64,000 nt of DNA. Origin: Anaerolineae bacterium. Lineage in GTDB: Bacteria > Chloroflexota > Anaerolineae > Aggregatilineales > Ch27. The stretch lies in NCBI GenBank assembly GCA_013178165.1, contig JABLXG010000004.1:310001-374000 (forward strand), in the 5' to 3' direction. This document shows positions 8,716 through 46,158 of this stretch, piece after piece. The notes beneath the pieces were generated by a model. The model did no database searches, was not told the DNA's origin, and saw only the letters and a list, made by a program, of their open reading frames with translations. Made by a program: the position numbers and the translations under genes. Positions within the stretch are counted from its first letter, which is position 1, and each line of letters begins with the position of its first letter.

Positions 8716-9888
8716 ATGATCGTGGTAGGAGTGATGTCCGATGCATCGATCGCCGGGATCGATGTCGCCGTCTGCGAGATCAATGGCGCGCCACCTGATC
8801 TGCGCGCCGAGGTGCTTTCCGCGTTATCCATTCCCTGGCCGCAGGAACTGAGCAAGCTGGTGATTGCCGCTCGCCAGCCCGAAGGCATTGACATTGCCGA
8901 CCTGTGTCTGCTGGACGTGGCCATCGGAGAGACCTTTGCCGCTGCCGTGCTGGAAGGCATTGCCGCCGCCGGGTATTACCCGGAGCAGGTCGATCTGATT
9001 GGCGTTAAGGGGCACAACATCCGTCATGAGGTCGGCGATGACGGGCGGGTGATGACCTCGCTGCAACTTGGCCAGGCGTCCATCGTGGCGGAGTGGACGG
9101 GGATCACGACGATCGGCGGTTTCCGCCAGCGCGATATGGCGGCTGGCGGGCAGGGCGCGCCGCTGATTGGGTACGTGGACTGGTTGCTGCTGCGCCATCC
9201 TACCGCTTACCGGGCCGTTCTCTACCTGGATCGTATTGCCAGCATGGTGTTGATCCCGCCGCGGTCGTCTACTGACCAGCCGCTCGCCTTTGAAGTCGGG
9301 CCGGGTACGGCCCTGGTTGACGTTGCGGAAGCTCACCTGAGCCAGATGGCGGAGGAAGACCGTAGCGACGGCGGTGTCAATCAAGCTTTTCTGGCTCATC
9401 TGCTGGCGGATCCGTATCTCAGACGCCGCCCCCCCAAGACGCTCAGCGAGTATGCGTTCGCTGAGTCGGCGGCGCAACGACTGTGGGAAGAGGCGCGCGC
9501 CGCCGGGTTGACCCCCCCCAGCATCCTGGAGACGTTCGTGGCGTTTACGGTTAATGCTATTGTGAGCGCCCTGCGGAGCTTTTCCCCGGCGCCGCCGGAT
9601 GAGGTCATTGTTGGCAGCAAGGGGCGGCGCTACCCGCTGCTGATGCGCCCGTTGCGGGAAGCCCTGGGCAACCTGCCGCTGCTGACCCACGAAGACCTGG
9701 GCCTGGATTCAGACAGCAAGTTCGGACTGGGATACGCGGTTCTGGCTCATGAAACCTGGCATAACCGCCCCGGCTCGTTGCCGTCGCTGACCGGGGTGCA
9801 TCAGCCCACGCCGCTCGGCTATATCATCCCCGGTCGCAATTACGAGTCGCTGTTGCGGCGGACCTGGCTCAATACATCGCGGACGTAA
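8716..9888 (+). CDS. divergent anhydro-N-acetylmuramic acid kinase homologue
   Basis: A 390-residue member of the AnmK family (ASKHA fold), which phosphorylates and hydrates anhydro-MurNAc during peptidoglycan recycling. GGGGGAGATGAG precedes ATG 8716. The strongest match is TLQLGQASIVAEWTG with R-D-M-A-A-G-G-Q-G-A-P-L (about residues 115-150). Two motifs are altered. The N-terminal phosphate loop, normally GLMSGTSxDGID, reads GVMSDASIAGID (residues 5-16). The D-F-R that precedes the R-D pair is G-F-R (residues 135-137). The C-terminal part retains DEVIVGSKGRRYPLLM. It is therefore either a kinase with changed chemistry or an inactive relative. Confidence 0.75.
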   Translation: MIVVGVMSDASIAGIDVAVCEINGAPPDLRAEVLSALSIPWPQELSKLVIAARQPEGIDIADLCLLDVAIGETFAAAVLEGIAAAGYYPEQVDLIGVKGHNIRHEVGDDGRVMTSLQLGQASIVAEWTGITTIGGFRQRDMAAGGQGAPLIGYVDWLLLRHPTAYRAVLYLDRIASMVLIPPRSSTDQPLAFEVGPGTALVDVAEAHLSQMAEEDRSDGGVNQAFLAHLLADPYLRRRPPKTLSEYAFAESAAQRLWEEARAAGLTPPSILETFVAFTVNAIVSALRSFSPAPPDEVIVGSKGRRYPLLMRPLREALGNLPLLTHEDLGLDSDSKFGLGYAVLAHETWHNRPGSLPSLTGVHQPTPLGYIIPGRNYESLLRRTWLNTSRT

Positions 9889-40764: not shown

Positions 40765-42147
40765 TCAGCCGATGGTCGCTACCGGGATCTGCGGCAGGCT
40801 GGCCTGCGCCCGCTGGACTTCCTCAACCGGGTATTCATAGTCTTCCAGTTCGCCGTTGAGATAGGCCTGGTAGGACGACATGTCGAAGAAGCCATGCCCG
40901 CTCAGGTTGAAGAGAATCACGCGCTCCTTGCCCTCAGCCTTCGCTTCCAGCGCCTGATCGATGGCGGCGCGGACGGCATGAGCGCTCTCCGGGGCGGGCG
41001 TGATGCCCTCGGCGCGGGTGAAGGTCACCGCCGCCTCAAAGACCGGGTTCTGGTGGTAAGCGACGGCCTCGATGATGCCCTGTTCGTGCAACAGGCTGAC
41101 CAGCGGGGCCATGCCGTGATAGCGCAGGCCACCAGCGTGGATGCCCGCCGGGACAAAGCCATGGCCAAGAGTGTACATCTTGACCAGTGGCGTCATCTGC
41201 ACGGTGTCGCCGAAGTCGTAGGCGTAGACGCCCTTGGTCATGCTGGGGCAGGCCATCGGCTCAACAGCCAGGAAACGCGCCCGGCGGCCGTTGGTCAGAT
41301 GCTCCCGGATGAACGGGAAGAGCAACCCGGCCATGTTGCTGCCGCCACCGGCGCAACCAATCACGATGTCCGGGTAATCGTCAGCCAGGGCCATCTGTAG
41401 CAGGGCCTCCTCGCCGACGACCGTCTGGTGCAGCAGCACATGATTGAGTACGCTGCCCAGACTGTACTTGGTGTCGGGGTTCTTGGCGGCGACTTCTACC
41501 GCCTCGCTGATGGCAATGCCCAGGCTGCCGGGGCTATCGGGGTCTTCCGCCAGGATCTTGCGCCCGGCATCGGTCAGGTTCGTGGGGCTGGCATGGACTT
41601 TCGCGCCGAAGGTTTCCATCAGACTGCGGCGGTAGGGCTTCTGATGGTAGCTGACCTTGACCATGAAAACCTCAACCTCGATCCCGAACATGGCCCCGGC
41701 CATCGCCAGCGATGATCCCCACTGGCCCGCGCCGGTTTCGGTAGCGATCTTGCGGATGCCTTCCTCACGGTTATAGAAGGCCTGGGCAATGGCCGTGTTG
41801 GGTTTGTGGCTGCCAACCGGGCTGGCGCCCTCGTACTTGTAGTAGATGCGGGCGGGGGTATCCAGCGCCTGTTCCAGCCGCCGGGCGCGGAACAGCGGCG
41901 ATGGCCGCCACTGACGATAAATGTCCCGCACTGGCTCCGGGATTTCGATGTAACGCTCGGTGCTGACTTCTTGCAGGATCAGCGCCATCGGGAAGAGCGG
42001 GGCCAGGTCATCCGGGCCGACCGGCTGGCGGGTGGCAGGATGCAGGACAGGGGCGGGTGGTACGGGCAGGTCGGGGACAATGTTGTACCATGCCCGCGGG
42101 AGCTGGTCTTCGGTCAGGACGTATTTGACGTGCTTCTTGTCAGGCAT
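40765..42147 (-). CDS. trpB: TrpB2-type tryptophan synthase beta chain
   Basis: PLP enzyme joining indole and L-serine to make tryptophan. It has 460 residues, longer than classic TrpB1 (~400) and typical of TrpB2, with the N-terminal extension [29 protein letters not shown] precedes ATG 42147. The PLP lysine lies in [11 protein letters not shown] near residue 112, and the phosphate-binding [11 protein letters not shown] near 266. No trpA or other trp gene is next to it. Control by a tRNA-Trp T-box upstream supports a tryptophan role. Confidence 0.9.
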
Positions 42148-42310: not shown

Positions 42311-42345
42311 AAACAAAAAGCCCATCCTCAGTAAAGAGGACGGGC
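42311..42345 (-). terminator. T-box-controlled terminator
   Basis: Ten-base stem with one mismatch, then TTTTTGTTT. It competes with the antiterminator formed by the T-box sequence. Confidence 0.9.
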
Positions 42346-42563
42346 CTGCCTGACGAACCCGCGGTGCCACCTCGCTTGGGATCAATCGCCCGATTGACCC
42401 CCACTCTTGGCCGTATAACGGCGGCTAACCCGGCGCGGGATTCTCCCCCGCGCGACTCCCCGGCCCATTCGGCGCTCGCTCGCACGCCGGCCCTTGCAGC
42501 CCATGGAGCCTGGCTCTCTGGGAGGAGCGTGGCGCTTACTCTTCCGGTTCACAGTCGCTGATC
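42311..42563 (-). promoter_or_regulatory. T-box riboswitch, tRNA-Trp specific
   Basis: Stem I base GCGACT (42553-42558) pairs with AGTCGC (42452-42457), and CCGG with CCGG inside it. The specifier loop has AGUA on its 5' side and GAA-UGG on its 3' side; UGG (42465-42467) is the Trp codon. The T-box GAGGTGGCACCGCG is at 42360-42373. Its UGGC (42366-42369) would pair with the acceptor end of a tRNA whose discriminator base is G, as in bacterial tRNA-Trp. The terminator GCCCGTCCTC/GAGGATGGGC with TTTTTGTTT is at 42311-42345. Uncharged tRNA-Trp should turn on the gene. Confidence 0.93.
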
Positions 42564-42578
42564 TATGCAGTTGAAAAC

Positions 42579-42607
42579 ATGATAGCCACCTGTGCGGGGT
42601 CTGTCAA
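42579..42607 (-). promoter_or_regulatory. promoter of the T-box / trpB transcript
   Basis: Perfect TTGACA (42602-42607), 17 bases, TATCAT (42579-42584). Transcription would begin near 42572, just before stem I. Confidence 0.9.
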
Positions 42608-42637: not shown

Positions 42638-42677
42638 GGAAAGAAAAGCGCCGGGGAAGGGGGGATTTCCCCGGCGC
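42638..42677 (-). terminator. intrinsic terminator of the pyruvate dehydrogenase operon
   Basis: On the minus strand GCGCCGGGGAAA pairs with TCCCCGGCGC, followed by TTTTCTTT. It lies 23 bases after the E2 stop and shields the trpB promoter. Confidence 0.9.
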
Positions 42678-42699: not shown

Positions 42700-44028
42700 T
42701 TAGATCAGCAGGCTCATCGGATTCTCGATCAGCTTCTTCATTTCTTGCAGGAAACGGGCCGCCTCTGCGCCGTCGCTGATGCGATGATCAACGCTAATGG
42801 TGACCTTCATGCGCCAGCTGACGCCAAGCGTTCCATCAGGCTGCACGACCGGCACCTGTTTGGCCGCACCAATGGCCAGGATGCCGGCCTCCGGCGGGTT
42901 AATGATGGCGATGAACTGGTCGACGTCATACGGCCCCAGATTGCTGATGGTGAAGGTGGCGCCTTCGATCTCTTCTGGTTTGACCTTGCCATCGCGGGCA
43001 CGGGCGACCATGTCCTTGTTCTGGGCGGCCATGGTGCCCAGGGCGGTTCGGTCGGCGTCGCGGGCGACGACGTTGATCAGACCCTCCTCCAGCGCAACAG
43101 CAATACCGATATGGATGCGCTTGTGGCGGACGATCCGGTCGCCGTAGAAGTGGCTGTTGAGGTTGGGGAACTTGCGCAGCGTCAGGGCGGTCGCTTTGAC
43201 GATCATGTCGTTGACGCTGATCTTGGCTGCGCCTTCCTCCAGACTGGCGTTAAGCTGCTGGCGCAGCTTGAGCAGCGCCTCGACGTCCATCTCTGTGGTG
43301 ACATAGAAGTGTGGAACCTGCTGCTTGGCTTCGACCATGCGCCGTCCAATGCGACCGCGCAGTTTGCTGGTCGGGATGACCTCGATATCGGGGCCTTCCG
43401 GCAGGGGGCCGAAAGATGGCGGCGGTGTGACCGGGGCGGCGGAAGGCGCGGCTGCGGGCGCCACTGCGGGCGCCGTTACCGGTGCGGGAGCAGCCTTCGG
43501 CAGGGCAGCGGGAGCCTGCACGGGTGCGAACCCTTCAACATCACGCCGGACGATCCGTCCGCCGGGGCCGCTGCCCGGAATCTGGCTGAGGTCAAGACCT
43601 TTATCCCTGGCGATGCGGCGGGCCAGCGGGCTGGCCTTGACGCCGCCGGGCAGTTGGCCGTCGCCTGCTTTCACCTGCACCGCTACAGCGGGTTGAGTCG
43701 GGGCCGCGGCAGGAGCTTCCGCCGGGGCAGGTTCGGGCGCTACTTCAGGGGTTGGCCTGGCGGCAGGGGCGGCGCCTGCCGTCGCTTCGCCAGGCTCGCC
43801 GACCAGGGCGATATCCGTGCCGACCGGGACAACGTCACCTTCGTTGACCAGGTGCTTGAGGATGGTGCCGGAGGCGGTGGTTTCGATCTCGATGGTGGCT
43901 TTGTCCGTCTCGATCTCAGCGATGACATCACCCTTGTTGATCGGATCGCCGACCTTCTTCACCCAGCGCACCAGCGTACCTTCTGCCATGTCAAAGCCCA
44001 GCTTGGGCATCTGAATGGTTTCGGCCAT
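42700..44028 (-). CDS. pdhC: dihydrolipoamide acetyltransferase (E2 of pyruvate dehydrogenase)
   Basis: Core subunit that transfers the acetyl group from lipoamide to CoA. It has 442 residues. One lipoyl domain (about 1-76) with Lys in E-I-E-T-D-K-A-T-I near 43; an Ala/Pro/Val linker; the peripheral-subunit-binding domain (about 130-170, KASPLARRIARDKGLDL and GPGGRIVRRDVE); a second Ala/Pro linker; and the catalytic domain with active-site H-R-I-S-D-G near 413. The start overlaps the E1 beta stop (TAATG). E3 is absent here. Confidence 0.94.
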   Translation of the reverse strand: MAETIQMPKLGFDMAEGTLVRWVKKVGDPINKGDVIAEIETDKATIEIETTASGTILKHLVNEGDVVPVGTDIALVGEPGEATAGAAPAARPTPEVAPEPAPAEAPAAAPTQPAVAVQVKAGDGQLPGGVKASPLARRIARDKGLDLSQIPGSGPGGRIVRRDVEGFAPVQAPAALPKAAPAPVTAPAVAPAAAPSAAPVTPPPSFGPLPEGPDIEVIPTSKLRGRIGRRMVEAKQQVPHFYVTTEMDVEALLKLRQQLNASLEEGAAKISVNDMIVKATALTLRKFPNLNSHFYGDRIVRHKRIHIGIAVALEEGLINVVARDADRTALGTMAAQNKDMVARARDGKVKPEEIEGATFTISNLGPYDVDQFIAIINPPEAGILAIGAAKQVPVVQPDGTLGVSWRMKVTISVDHRISDGAEAARFLQEMKKLIENPMSLLI

Positions 44029-45011
44029 TAGAGCACCTCTTTCACAGCTTTGACGACTTTCTGCGCGTCGGGCAGGGCCATCAGCTCGATGTTAGCGGCG
44101 TAGGGCAGCGGCTGATCCATGGCGCTGACGCGCCTGACCGGCGCATCCAGGTAGTCAAAGACCTGCTCCTGTAACTGGGCCGCTACTTCCGCGCCGACAT
44201 TGAACATCGGCAGCGATTCTTCCACAATGACCGCCCGGTTGGTCTTTTTGACACTCTCAAAGACCGGCTCCAGGTCCAGGGGGCGCAACCAGCGCAGGTC
44301 GATGATCTCCGCTTCGATGCCTTCCTGGGCCAGCATCTCCGCCGCCTGCGTCGACCATTCCAAGCCCTTCTGGTAAGTCACGATGGTGACATCTTTGCCA
44401 GTGCGCTTGATGTCGCTCTTGCCGATCGGCAGAAGGAAATCCGGGTCGTCCACAGGGACAGGGCTGCGGCGCTGGAGCATGGTTGAATGCTCCACAAATA
44501 GTACCGGGTTGTCATCACGGATGGCGGCCTTGAGCATCCCTTTGGCGTCGTAGGCTGTGCCCGGCACAGCCACATACATGCCGGGGAAGTGAGCGAAGAT
44601 CACCTCCGGCGCATGGGAGTGGGTGGCGGCGAGTTGCTTGCCGCCGCCGGTTGTCGTCCGGATAACTAGGGGGACAGTGAACTGGCCATTGAACATGTAA
44701 CGCACCTTGGCCATGTGGTTGACGATGGCGTCCATGGCGACAAAGGCGAAGTTGATGGTCATGATCTCGGCGACCGGGCGCAGACCAGCCATCGCCGCGC
44801 CAACAGCAGCCCCGGCGATGACCATCTCGGAGATGGGTGTATCGCGCACGCGGCGGGCGCCAAACTCGTCCAGGAAGCCGCGGGTCACCGCATAAGTGCC
44901 GCCCCAGACGCCGACTTCCTCGCCCATGATAAAGACACGCTCGTCACGCAGCATCTCTTCCCGTAGGGCGCTGCTGAGCGCCTCACGGATGGTGATGATT
45001 TTCTCGGTCAT
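44028..45011 (-). CDS. pdhB: pyruvate dehydrogenase E1 component, beta subunit
   Basis: A 327-residue transketolase-like beta subunit that completes the thiamine-diphosphate active site. ATG 45011 has AGGTG about 10 bases upstream; a GTG nine bases earlier is possible. Motifs: VFIMGEEVGVWGGTYAVTRGFLDEFG, RVRDTPISEMVIAGAAVGAAMAG, and VIVEESLPMFNVGAEVAAQLQE near the C terminus. Sixteen bases after the E1 alpha stop; one operon with E1 alpha and E2. Confidence 0.94.
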   Translation of the reverse strand: MTEKIITIREALSSALREEMLRDERVFIMGEEVGVWGGTYAVTRGFLDEFGARRVRDTPISEMVIAGAAVGAAMAGLRPVAEIMTINFAFVAMDAIVNHMAKVRYMFNGQFTVPLVIRTTTGGGKQLAATHSHAPEVIFAHFPGMYVAVPGTAYDAKGMLKAAIRDDNPVLFVEHSTMLQRRSPVPVDDPDFLLPIGKSDIKRTGKDVTIVTYQKGLEWSTQAAEMLAQEGIEAEIIDLRWLRPLDLEPVFESVKKTNRAVIVEESLPMFNVGAEVAAQLQEQVFDYLDAPVRRVSAMDQPLPYAANIELMALPDAQKVVKAVKEVL

Positions 45012-45026
45012 TCCGCTCACTCACCT

Positions 45027-45989
45027 TTATGCGTACACAAAGCTGACCAGGTCTTCGTAGGTCGGCTCGGGGCTGTTCTCAGCAAATTCTACCGCTTCGG
45101 CGATCGTGGCCTGGACTTCGCGCTCGATCTCGTCCAGCTCAGGGAGCACGTTCTTGAACTTGCCGTCCAGGTAAGTGCGGAAGTGCCCGATGGGATCGCC
45201 TTCAGCGTAGCGGGCAACCTCATCCTTGCTACGATAGCGCTGCGGATCGCCCATGCTGTGGCCCTCAAAGCGGTAGGTCAGCGATTCCATCAGGATCGGG
45301 CCATGTTTGGCAGCGTAGGCGATGGCCTCGCTGACGGCCTCATGGACGGCCAGCACATCCATGCCGTCGACGCGCGGTCCTTCCCGCATGCCGTAGGCGA
45401 TGGCCCGCTTGACCAGCTCCGGTTGGCCGGAGGCGCGTTCAACAGCGGTGCCCATGCCATAGCCGTTGTTCTCGATCAGCCAGACGACGGGCAGGTCCCA
45501 CACCGCGCTCAGGTTGAGCGATTCGTGGAAGTAACCGATGTTGGTTGCGCCGTCGCCCATCAGGGCGACCACGACCTCGTCCTGCTCCAGGTAGCGGGCC
45601 TTCAGGGCAATCCCGGCGGCCAGCGGCAGGTGCCCGCCGACGATGCCATGCCCACCCCAGAAGCGCTTCTCGCGGTCAGCCAGGTGCATGGAGCCGCCCT
45701 TGCCGCCGCTGGTGCCGGTGCGCTTGCCGAGCATCTCGGCCATCACGCGCCTTGGCTCCATGCCCTTGGCCAGGGCGATGCCATGATCGCGGTAAGCAGT
45801 AATGATATGGTCATGGTCGCGCAGGGCGCTGACGACGCCGACCCCGGTCGCTTCCTGGCCGATGTACAGGTGAAGGAAACCGCCGATCTTGCCCTGCTGA
45901 TAGAGTTCAGCGCACTTCTCCTCGAACCGCCGGATCAGTACCATCTGGCGGTACCAGTCTATCAGGGTGTCCTTTTTTGGTGCTGCCAT
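45027..45989 (-). CDS. pdhA: pyruvate dehydrogenase E1 component, alpha subunit
   Basis: Thiamine-diphosphate-binding alpha chain that decarboxylates pyruvate. It has 320 residues; ATG 45989 is preceded by AGGAG. MVLIRRFEEKCAELYQQGKIGGFLHLYIGQEA opens the domain, and the ThDP motif starts G-D-G-A-T-N-I-G near 155 and ends at E-N-N-G-Y-G. The phosphorylation-loop-like YRFEGHSMGDPQRYRSKDE is near 255. A branched-chain or acetoin-type E1 cannot be fully excluded by sequence alone. Confidence 0.92.
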   Translation of the reverse strand: MAAPKKDTLIDWYRQMVLIRRFEEKCAELYQQGKIGGFLHLYIGQEATGVGVVSALRDHDHIITAYRDHGIALAKGMEPRRVMAEMLGKRTGTSGGKGGSMHLADREKRFWGGHGIVGGHLPLAAGIALKARYLEQDEVVVALMGDGATNIGYFHESLNLSAVWDLPVVWLIENNGYGMGTAVERASGQPELVKRAIAYGMREGPRVDGMDVLAVHEAVSEAIAYAAKHGPILMESLTYRFEGHSMGDPQRYRSKDEVARYAEGDPIGHFRTYLDGKFKNVLPELDEIEREVQATIAEAVEFAENSPEPTYEDLVSFVYA

Positions 45990-46158
45990 AATGCTCCTCA
46001 GTTCACACAAAAATGGCGTTGTGCCAAACGCCGGTAAAGAACCAGGCCAAACCCGGTTGGGGAGTGCTCATGAGTGGCCATGCCGCTGTGTCCGGGTCCT
46101 GGCGGGGTTTCCCCGGCCAGCCGTACCTGCGCCGGGTAGCGCCCGGAACCATGACTGA

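Follow-up and report, generated by a model that had tools for sequence, protein, structure and literature searches.

Anatomy of the trpB2 leader

The window, by which we mean the whole stretch of 64,000 nucleotides that was analysed, carries on its minus strand the gene trpB2 (40765..42147; 460 aa), whose ATG start codon at 42147 is preceded by GGAGGAGG, and ahead of this gene a full transcriptional T-box (42318-42607) with promoter, stem I, UGG specifier, UGGC bulge, antiterminator and strong terminator. Upstream of this unit are the ORFs of a pyruvate-dehydrogenase-like operon (E1-alpha, E1-beta, E2; 42700-46010), which ends in an intrinsic terminator at 42648..42677 of the minus strand. Behind that terminator stands a sigma-70-type promoter, TTGACA-17-TATCAT (42579..42607, minus strand), with 11 of 12 consensus matches, in a scan of 701 bases where 0.1 promoter-like sites would be expected by chance. 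The promoter is retained in the near-identical locus L057, and its form is retained in L058, L062, L066 and L076. With its own promoter behind the operon terminator, the T-box unit is therefore transcribed separately, and the position of the promoter would place the start of transcription near 42572.

A sequence-only reading of this DNA had proposed a complete tRNA-Trp T-box in control of a stand-alone TrpB2, and we could locate all the parts that it named (promoter, stem I with AGUA, GAA-UGG, UGGC and terminator) on the minus strand. The Rfam covariance model RF00230 matches 42561-42333 over its full length (model positions 1-219) with 72.4 bits and E = 1.3e-15, which bears out the proposal, though under the gathering score of 93; a default Rfam scan reports no T-box in this leader, while a scan by E-value does. 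In the RF00230 alignment, stem I spans 42457..42561 on the minus strand and contains AGUA (42540-42537), AGAGA (42519-42515) and the apical loop, the specifier UGG (Trp; 42465..42467) comes directly after GAA, and the F-box CCGUUA of stem IIA/B lies at 42416..42421. The discriminator stem III, GAGUG-[10 bp, 4-nt loop]-AA (42376..42406), covaries among relatives and is followed by the T-box sequence AGGUGGCACCGCGG (42359..42372), in which the bulge UGGCACC occupies 42369-42363. The complete switch thus stands as described, with one correction: stem II (42433..42453), which falls in a gap of the alignment, reads as a plain, reduced 7-bp hairpin and has no AGUA S-turn. This S-turn is frequent in T-boxes without being universal, and we did not count it as defining because Gly T-boxes have no stem II, according to the available text of PMC4919913. 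The leader therefore shares with the Trp-specific transcriptional T-boxes of RF00230 the AGUA/AGAGA of stem I, UGG, the F-box, GAGUG-stem III-AA, UGGN and the antiterminator/terminator pair, and differs from RF00230 T-boxes in its low score and in the missing S-turn.

The antiterminator (42336..42373, minus strand) was drawn from sequence reading together with the RF00230 alignment. Its helix A1 pairs 42373-42370 with 42339-42336 and its helix A2 pairs 42362-42358 with 42344-42340, the last pair being G-U. Such an antiterminator G-U pair and an RRRxG-stem III-AA motif are the charging sensors named in the accessible portion of PMC7583486. The intrinsic terminator of the leader (42318..42347, minus strand; 12 bp) folds at -22.2 kcal/mol (z -6.5), with none of 200 shuffles equally stable, and ends 170 nt before the start codon. 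As read from the sequence, terminator and antiterminator both use 42344-42336 and are mutually exclusive. The minimum-energy fold of the whole leader (z -1.8) does not make the T-box visible in the predicted structure, and a single-sequence fold of the 58-nt antiterminator region proved uninformative as well; both were kept out of the evidence.

T-boxes across the genome and its relatives

RF00230 matches the genome six times, upstream of valS, asnS, pheS, leuS, thrS and trpB2, the five synthetase genes having been identified from ORF reading and not by family search. Specifier, bulge and host tRNA discriminator are, in this order, GUC, UGGU and A for valS; AAC, UGGC and G for asnS; UUC, UGGU and A for pheS; CUC, UGGU and A for leuS; ACC, UGGA and U for thrS; and UGG, UGGC and G for trpB2. 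The host tRNA-Trp (CCA) has the 3' end ...CTCCCCT-G-, that is G73, to which the leader bulge UGGC is complementary and which is the discriminator that the sequence-only reading had expected. The agreement that it saw between specifier codon, discriminator fit and gene product, the specifier matching the amino acid of the regulated gene, extends to all six T-boxes, where specifier, discriminator and downstream gene are consistent throughout (6/6). The Chloroflexota-like genome thereby contributes a complete set of six T-boxes. About 100 nt upstream of its asnS T-box, on the same strand, there is a tRNA-Cys gene (L002:1868-1940; G000:C48), perhaps in one transcript with it.

The remark that T-boxes are best known from Firmicutes makes the present case appear more unusual than it is, as the genome holds five others and Chloroflexi T-boxes were described in 2008 (Wels et al., PMC2494555); the phylum is also listed among those with T-boxes in the part of PMC3766115 available to us. 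According to the accessible text of Wels et al., Dehalococcoides has a T-box on ileS and a further two on 'trpE and trpB-like' genes. The trpB2 T-box is, on the strength of that text, a further case of the kind reported in 2008 for a Chloroflexi 'trpB-like' gene, the common feature being a T-box upstream of such a gene, likened by description and not by sequence. It differs in that trpE too has a Trp-related T-box in Dehalococcoides, while trpB2 is here the sole Trp-biosynthesis target among the six, in a genome in which trpA and trpD were not found. Within the partial texts covered by our literature search on T-box and trpB2, no description of a T-box-controlled stand-alone trpB2 was found.

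Among relatives, trpB2 is present in 52 of 81 genomes, and 30 of its loci were read. A T-box motif occurs within 420 nt upstream of the gene in 19 of these 30; the other 11 have no upstream T-box motif, one of them (L078) having no upstream sequence at all. UGG follows GAA in 18 of the 18 leaders, out of 19, that reach this point (once as GAAAUGG), and the F-box CCGUUA was found in 18 of 19. Stem III varies in sequence and keeps its pairing inside the conserved purine frame GAGUG..AA, as in GGGGUCAAUC/GAUUGAUCCC, AGUCCGGCGC/GUGCCGGGCU and AAACCAUC/GAUGGUUU.

These data bear on the possibility that the leader is a decaying relic that no longer switches and leaves trpB2 at a fixed promoter level set by the terminator. 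Such decay might explain the score under the RF00230 gathering cut-off, the reduced stem II and the 170 nt from terminator to start codon. However, four of the six T-boxes of the genome score under that cut-off, those of pheS, leuS and thrS among them, and in the trpB2 leader the terminator, bulge, specifier and GAGUG-stem III-AA are all intact, and relatives conserve them, with covariation. We therefore regard decay as highly improbable, and consider it very probable that this is a canonical transcriptional T-box that senses tRNA-Trp and switches on the stand-alone TrpB2 when this tRNA is uncharged.

The relatives also offer a view on the discriminator rule itself. The bulge is UGGC in 15 of the 19 trpB2 leaders and UGGU in four (L058, L060, L072 and L073). 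Of the 13 relatives' genomes tried, 10 gave a readable tRNA-Trp, with G73 in every case, including the genomes of L058, L060 and L072 (tRNAs L289, L290 and L291). These three leaders are a natural departure from the rule, as their fourth pair with G73 is U-G at best, and a strict general match between UGGN and the discriminator was rejected on their account. The UGGU homologues, three of the four shown to face G73, are thus a natural experiment on the strictness of the rule.

As a separate observation, 7 of the 19 trpB2 leaders (L061, L063, L064, L065, L069, L071 and L073) contain one more terminator-like hairpin (CCGCCATCACCGGCGG and then a T-run) in the loop of stem III, ahead of the antiterminator, and L074 has a similar stretch in reverse complement. 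The CCGCCATCACC repeat of the relatives' stem III loops was considered as a mobile element, and a quick count over the window and the loci collected by then gave no spread.

A tRNA-Ala(GGC) inside the leuS T-box

A sister T-box of this genome, the one on leuS (C1:385002-385315), lies outside the window and contains a tRNA at C1:385184-385256 (L004:1683-1755, genome G000), which ARAGORN identifies as tRNA-Ala(GGC). The tRNA is complete, with 7 of 7 acceptor pairs and G3:U70, and it sits between GAGUG-GAUGGC and GCCAUC-AA, which places it in the stem III loop. When GTDB genomes were scanned by pattern, at least 120 stretches matched, and 80 loci were retrieved. Of these, 72 have a complete tRNA-Ala (71 GGC, 1 CGC) whose end lies 8-33 nt ahead of the T-box motif; the arrangement was not seen in L091, L094, L099 (at the locus end), L111, L119, L122, L140 and L159. 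The 72 loci include 42 from Bacillota, 17 from Chloroflexota, four from Thermomicrobiota, two each from Coprothermobacterota and Atribacterota, and one each from Caldisericota, Actinomycetota and Armatimonadota. With a slightly looser pattern, 36 of 400 genomes (25 of 225 genera) of the window's own phylum were positive, and a reversed control pattern found none.

Taken together, at least 102 loci are on record (our own and, within L086-L165 and L223-L251, 72 from the GTDB scan and 29 from the phylum scan, some genomes being in both scan sets), and the tRNA-Ala of the 102 listed is GGC in 101 and CGC in one. The context of a CUC specifier (GA, optional A or C, CUCRYC) was found by pattern in 92 of them; for the other 10, CUC was seen by eye in seven, two are truncated and one (L163) has no visible stem I. 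RF00230 matched all eight diverse loci tried, at E-values from 3e-26 to 1.5e-8. Around the tRNA, stem III is closed by a helix whose pairs covary: it has on average 4.7 pairs with its own partner strand and 2.0 with partners swapped between loci (maximum 2.4 in 200 swaps); it reaches at least four pairs in 64 of 101 loci and fewer in 37. A leuS signature lies on the same strand within 1.3 kb downstream in 86 of the 102 listed loci and farther away in four, and was not seen in 12, seven of which had less than 1.3 kb of sequence.

A pattern for tRNA-Ala(GGC) from anticodon to T-loop, which fits 94 of the 102 known cases, has a single match in 20 of 27 different genomes (30 entries, three of them repeats) and more than one in six; it missed one, in which another pattern had found one copy. 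The copy in the leuS T-box is thus usually the only tRNA-Ala(GGC) of its genome. An earlier counting pattern, which matched 8 of the 27 genomes, was dropped as too strict. A LeuRS tree of 42 rows places 24 of 25 Bacillota in one starred branch, which fits an old, mainly vertical descent. Some loci lead elsewhere: in L090, L096, L113, L130, L135 and L146 (Desulfotruncus/Desulfofundulus/Desulfallas-like) the gene next to the Leu T-box with its tRNA-Ala is acyl-CoA-ligase-like, with leuS seen farther downstream past this gene in three of the six (L096, L113 and L130), and in L108 and L163 such a T-box stands ahead of a branched-chain-aminotransferase-like gene, the tRNA-Ala of L163 being the CGC one.

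On a bolder reading, the leuS T-box is a conserved hybrid RNA with tRNA-Ala(GGC) built into its discriminator domain, so that one transcript would be both the precursor of an essential tRNA and a sensor of tRNA-Leu; the architecture itself is seen at no fewer than 102 loci. The tRNA-Ala precedes the terminator and should therefore be produced regardless of leuS read-through, so that the supply of an essential tRNA would be independent of the switch. The helix around the tRNA, together with the purine frame, suggests that the tRNA doubles as the body of stem III, a part of the discriminator domain. Whether tRNA-Ala and leuS T-box are functionally coupled we judge to be about an even bet. No publication describing a tRNA-Ala in a leuS T-box was found, in a search outside which most subscription papers lie and which does not establish absence from print; the available portions of PMC7778990, PMC7583486 and PMC4919913 have nothing on a tRNA inside a T-box. 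A tRNA gene within a riboswitch, conserved across several phyla, raises the question of how a single transcript can serve both RNase P processing and T-box sensing, and this hybrid could matter more than the trpB2 T-box.

TrpB2 and the tryptophan pathway

The product of trpB2 scores above the cut-offs of the TrpB-like PLP enzyme families NF009057 (740 bits, cut-off 366) and TIGR01415 (645 bits, cut-off 518.85), and below that of the TrpB1 model TIGR00263 (143 bits, cut-off 392.45); it differs from the TrpB2 enzymes of these families by the lack of a detectable trpA in its genome. Its best PDB matches are 6hul_B (E = 2.7e-146), 4qys_B and 6hte_B. We take all three to be TrpB2-type chains, 4qys and 6hte going by the name 'beta chain 2' and 6hul by 'beta chain 1'. 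TrpB2-type chains can pair with TrpA and prefer phosphoserine. A search of the genome for a second TrpB with P0001 gave nothing beyond a 26-bit match.

The stand-alone state that the sequence-only reading had described for the neighbourhood holds for the whole assembly, a 52-contig draft that is 98.6% complete: trpA (PF00290) has no match anywhere in it, with 14 of 14 control genomes positive in the same search. Furthermore, trpA was found in 67 of the 81 relatives searched and was not found in G001 (same genus, 96% complete) or G002 (same family, 91%). For trpD (TIGR01245, cut-off 199), the genome itself, G001 and G002 give only about 40-45 bits; full matches occur in G003, G004, G020 and G035, and G003 and G004, which are of the same family, have both trpA and trpD. 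The draft state of the assembly and the gene content of these two family members could mean that both genes exist in the organism and fell outside the assembly. We give this a slim chance, given that G001 and G002 lack both genes too.

One gene for an IGPS-like protein remains in the genome, alone and at 128 bits (L214, about 8872-9612 minus; G000:C26:14871-15611). It has RYDFIIDEYQ in frame and lacks EIKKASPSKG. We take the catalytic residues of IGPS to include the lysine of R-K-DFIIDEYQ and the motif EIKKASPSKG; this lysine is missing here. The protein is possibly a pseudoenzyme left behind by loss of the pathway, and the organism seems to have shed most of its Trp pathway, as judged from trpA and trpD, although with this gene left the loss is not total. 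Another way to read a real T-box at this locus is that TrpB2 makes Trp de novo, its partner being either an alpha subunit that escaped recognition or the IGPS-like protein, and the survival of that gene and the ability of TrpB2-type chains, the nearest PDB relatives, to pair with TrpA would be in keeping with it. Against this stand the solitary position of the IGPS-like protein, its low score and missing residues, and the fact that trpD was likewise not found, and we hold a de novo role to be unlikely, if still worth keeping in mind.

Because neither trpA nor trpD was found in the genome, TrpB2 most likely salvages indole, and indole salvage under tRNA-Trp control is the most likely and best reading of this gene absence. 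From the known mechanism of T-boxes we infer tRNA binding, antitermination, enzyme activity and salvage as follows. The UGG of stem I would read the anticodon of tRNA-Trp. When this tRNA is uncharged, its GCCA end would pair with the UGGC of the bulge, the antiterminator would replace the terminator at 42347-42318, and trpB2 would be transcribed; when it is charged, the terminator would win. TrpB2 would then make Trp from scavenged indole and serine, and the switch would act as a starvation-driven valve for indole salvage.

For the lineage as a whole, we lean somewhat towards a history in which de novo Trp synthesis has been lost and cells depend in part on indole that they scavenge; TrpB2 would be the one step kept, and the charge of tRNA-Trp the only gauge. 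The T-box would then be a salvage valve and not a control of a pathway or of a synthetase, guarding a lone salvage enzyme in a genome where trpA and trpD were not found.
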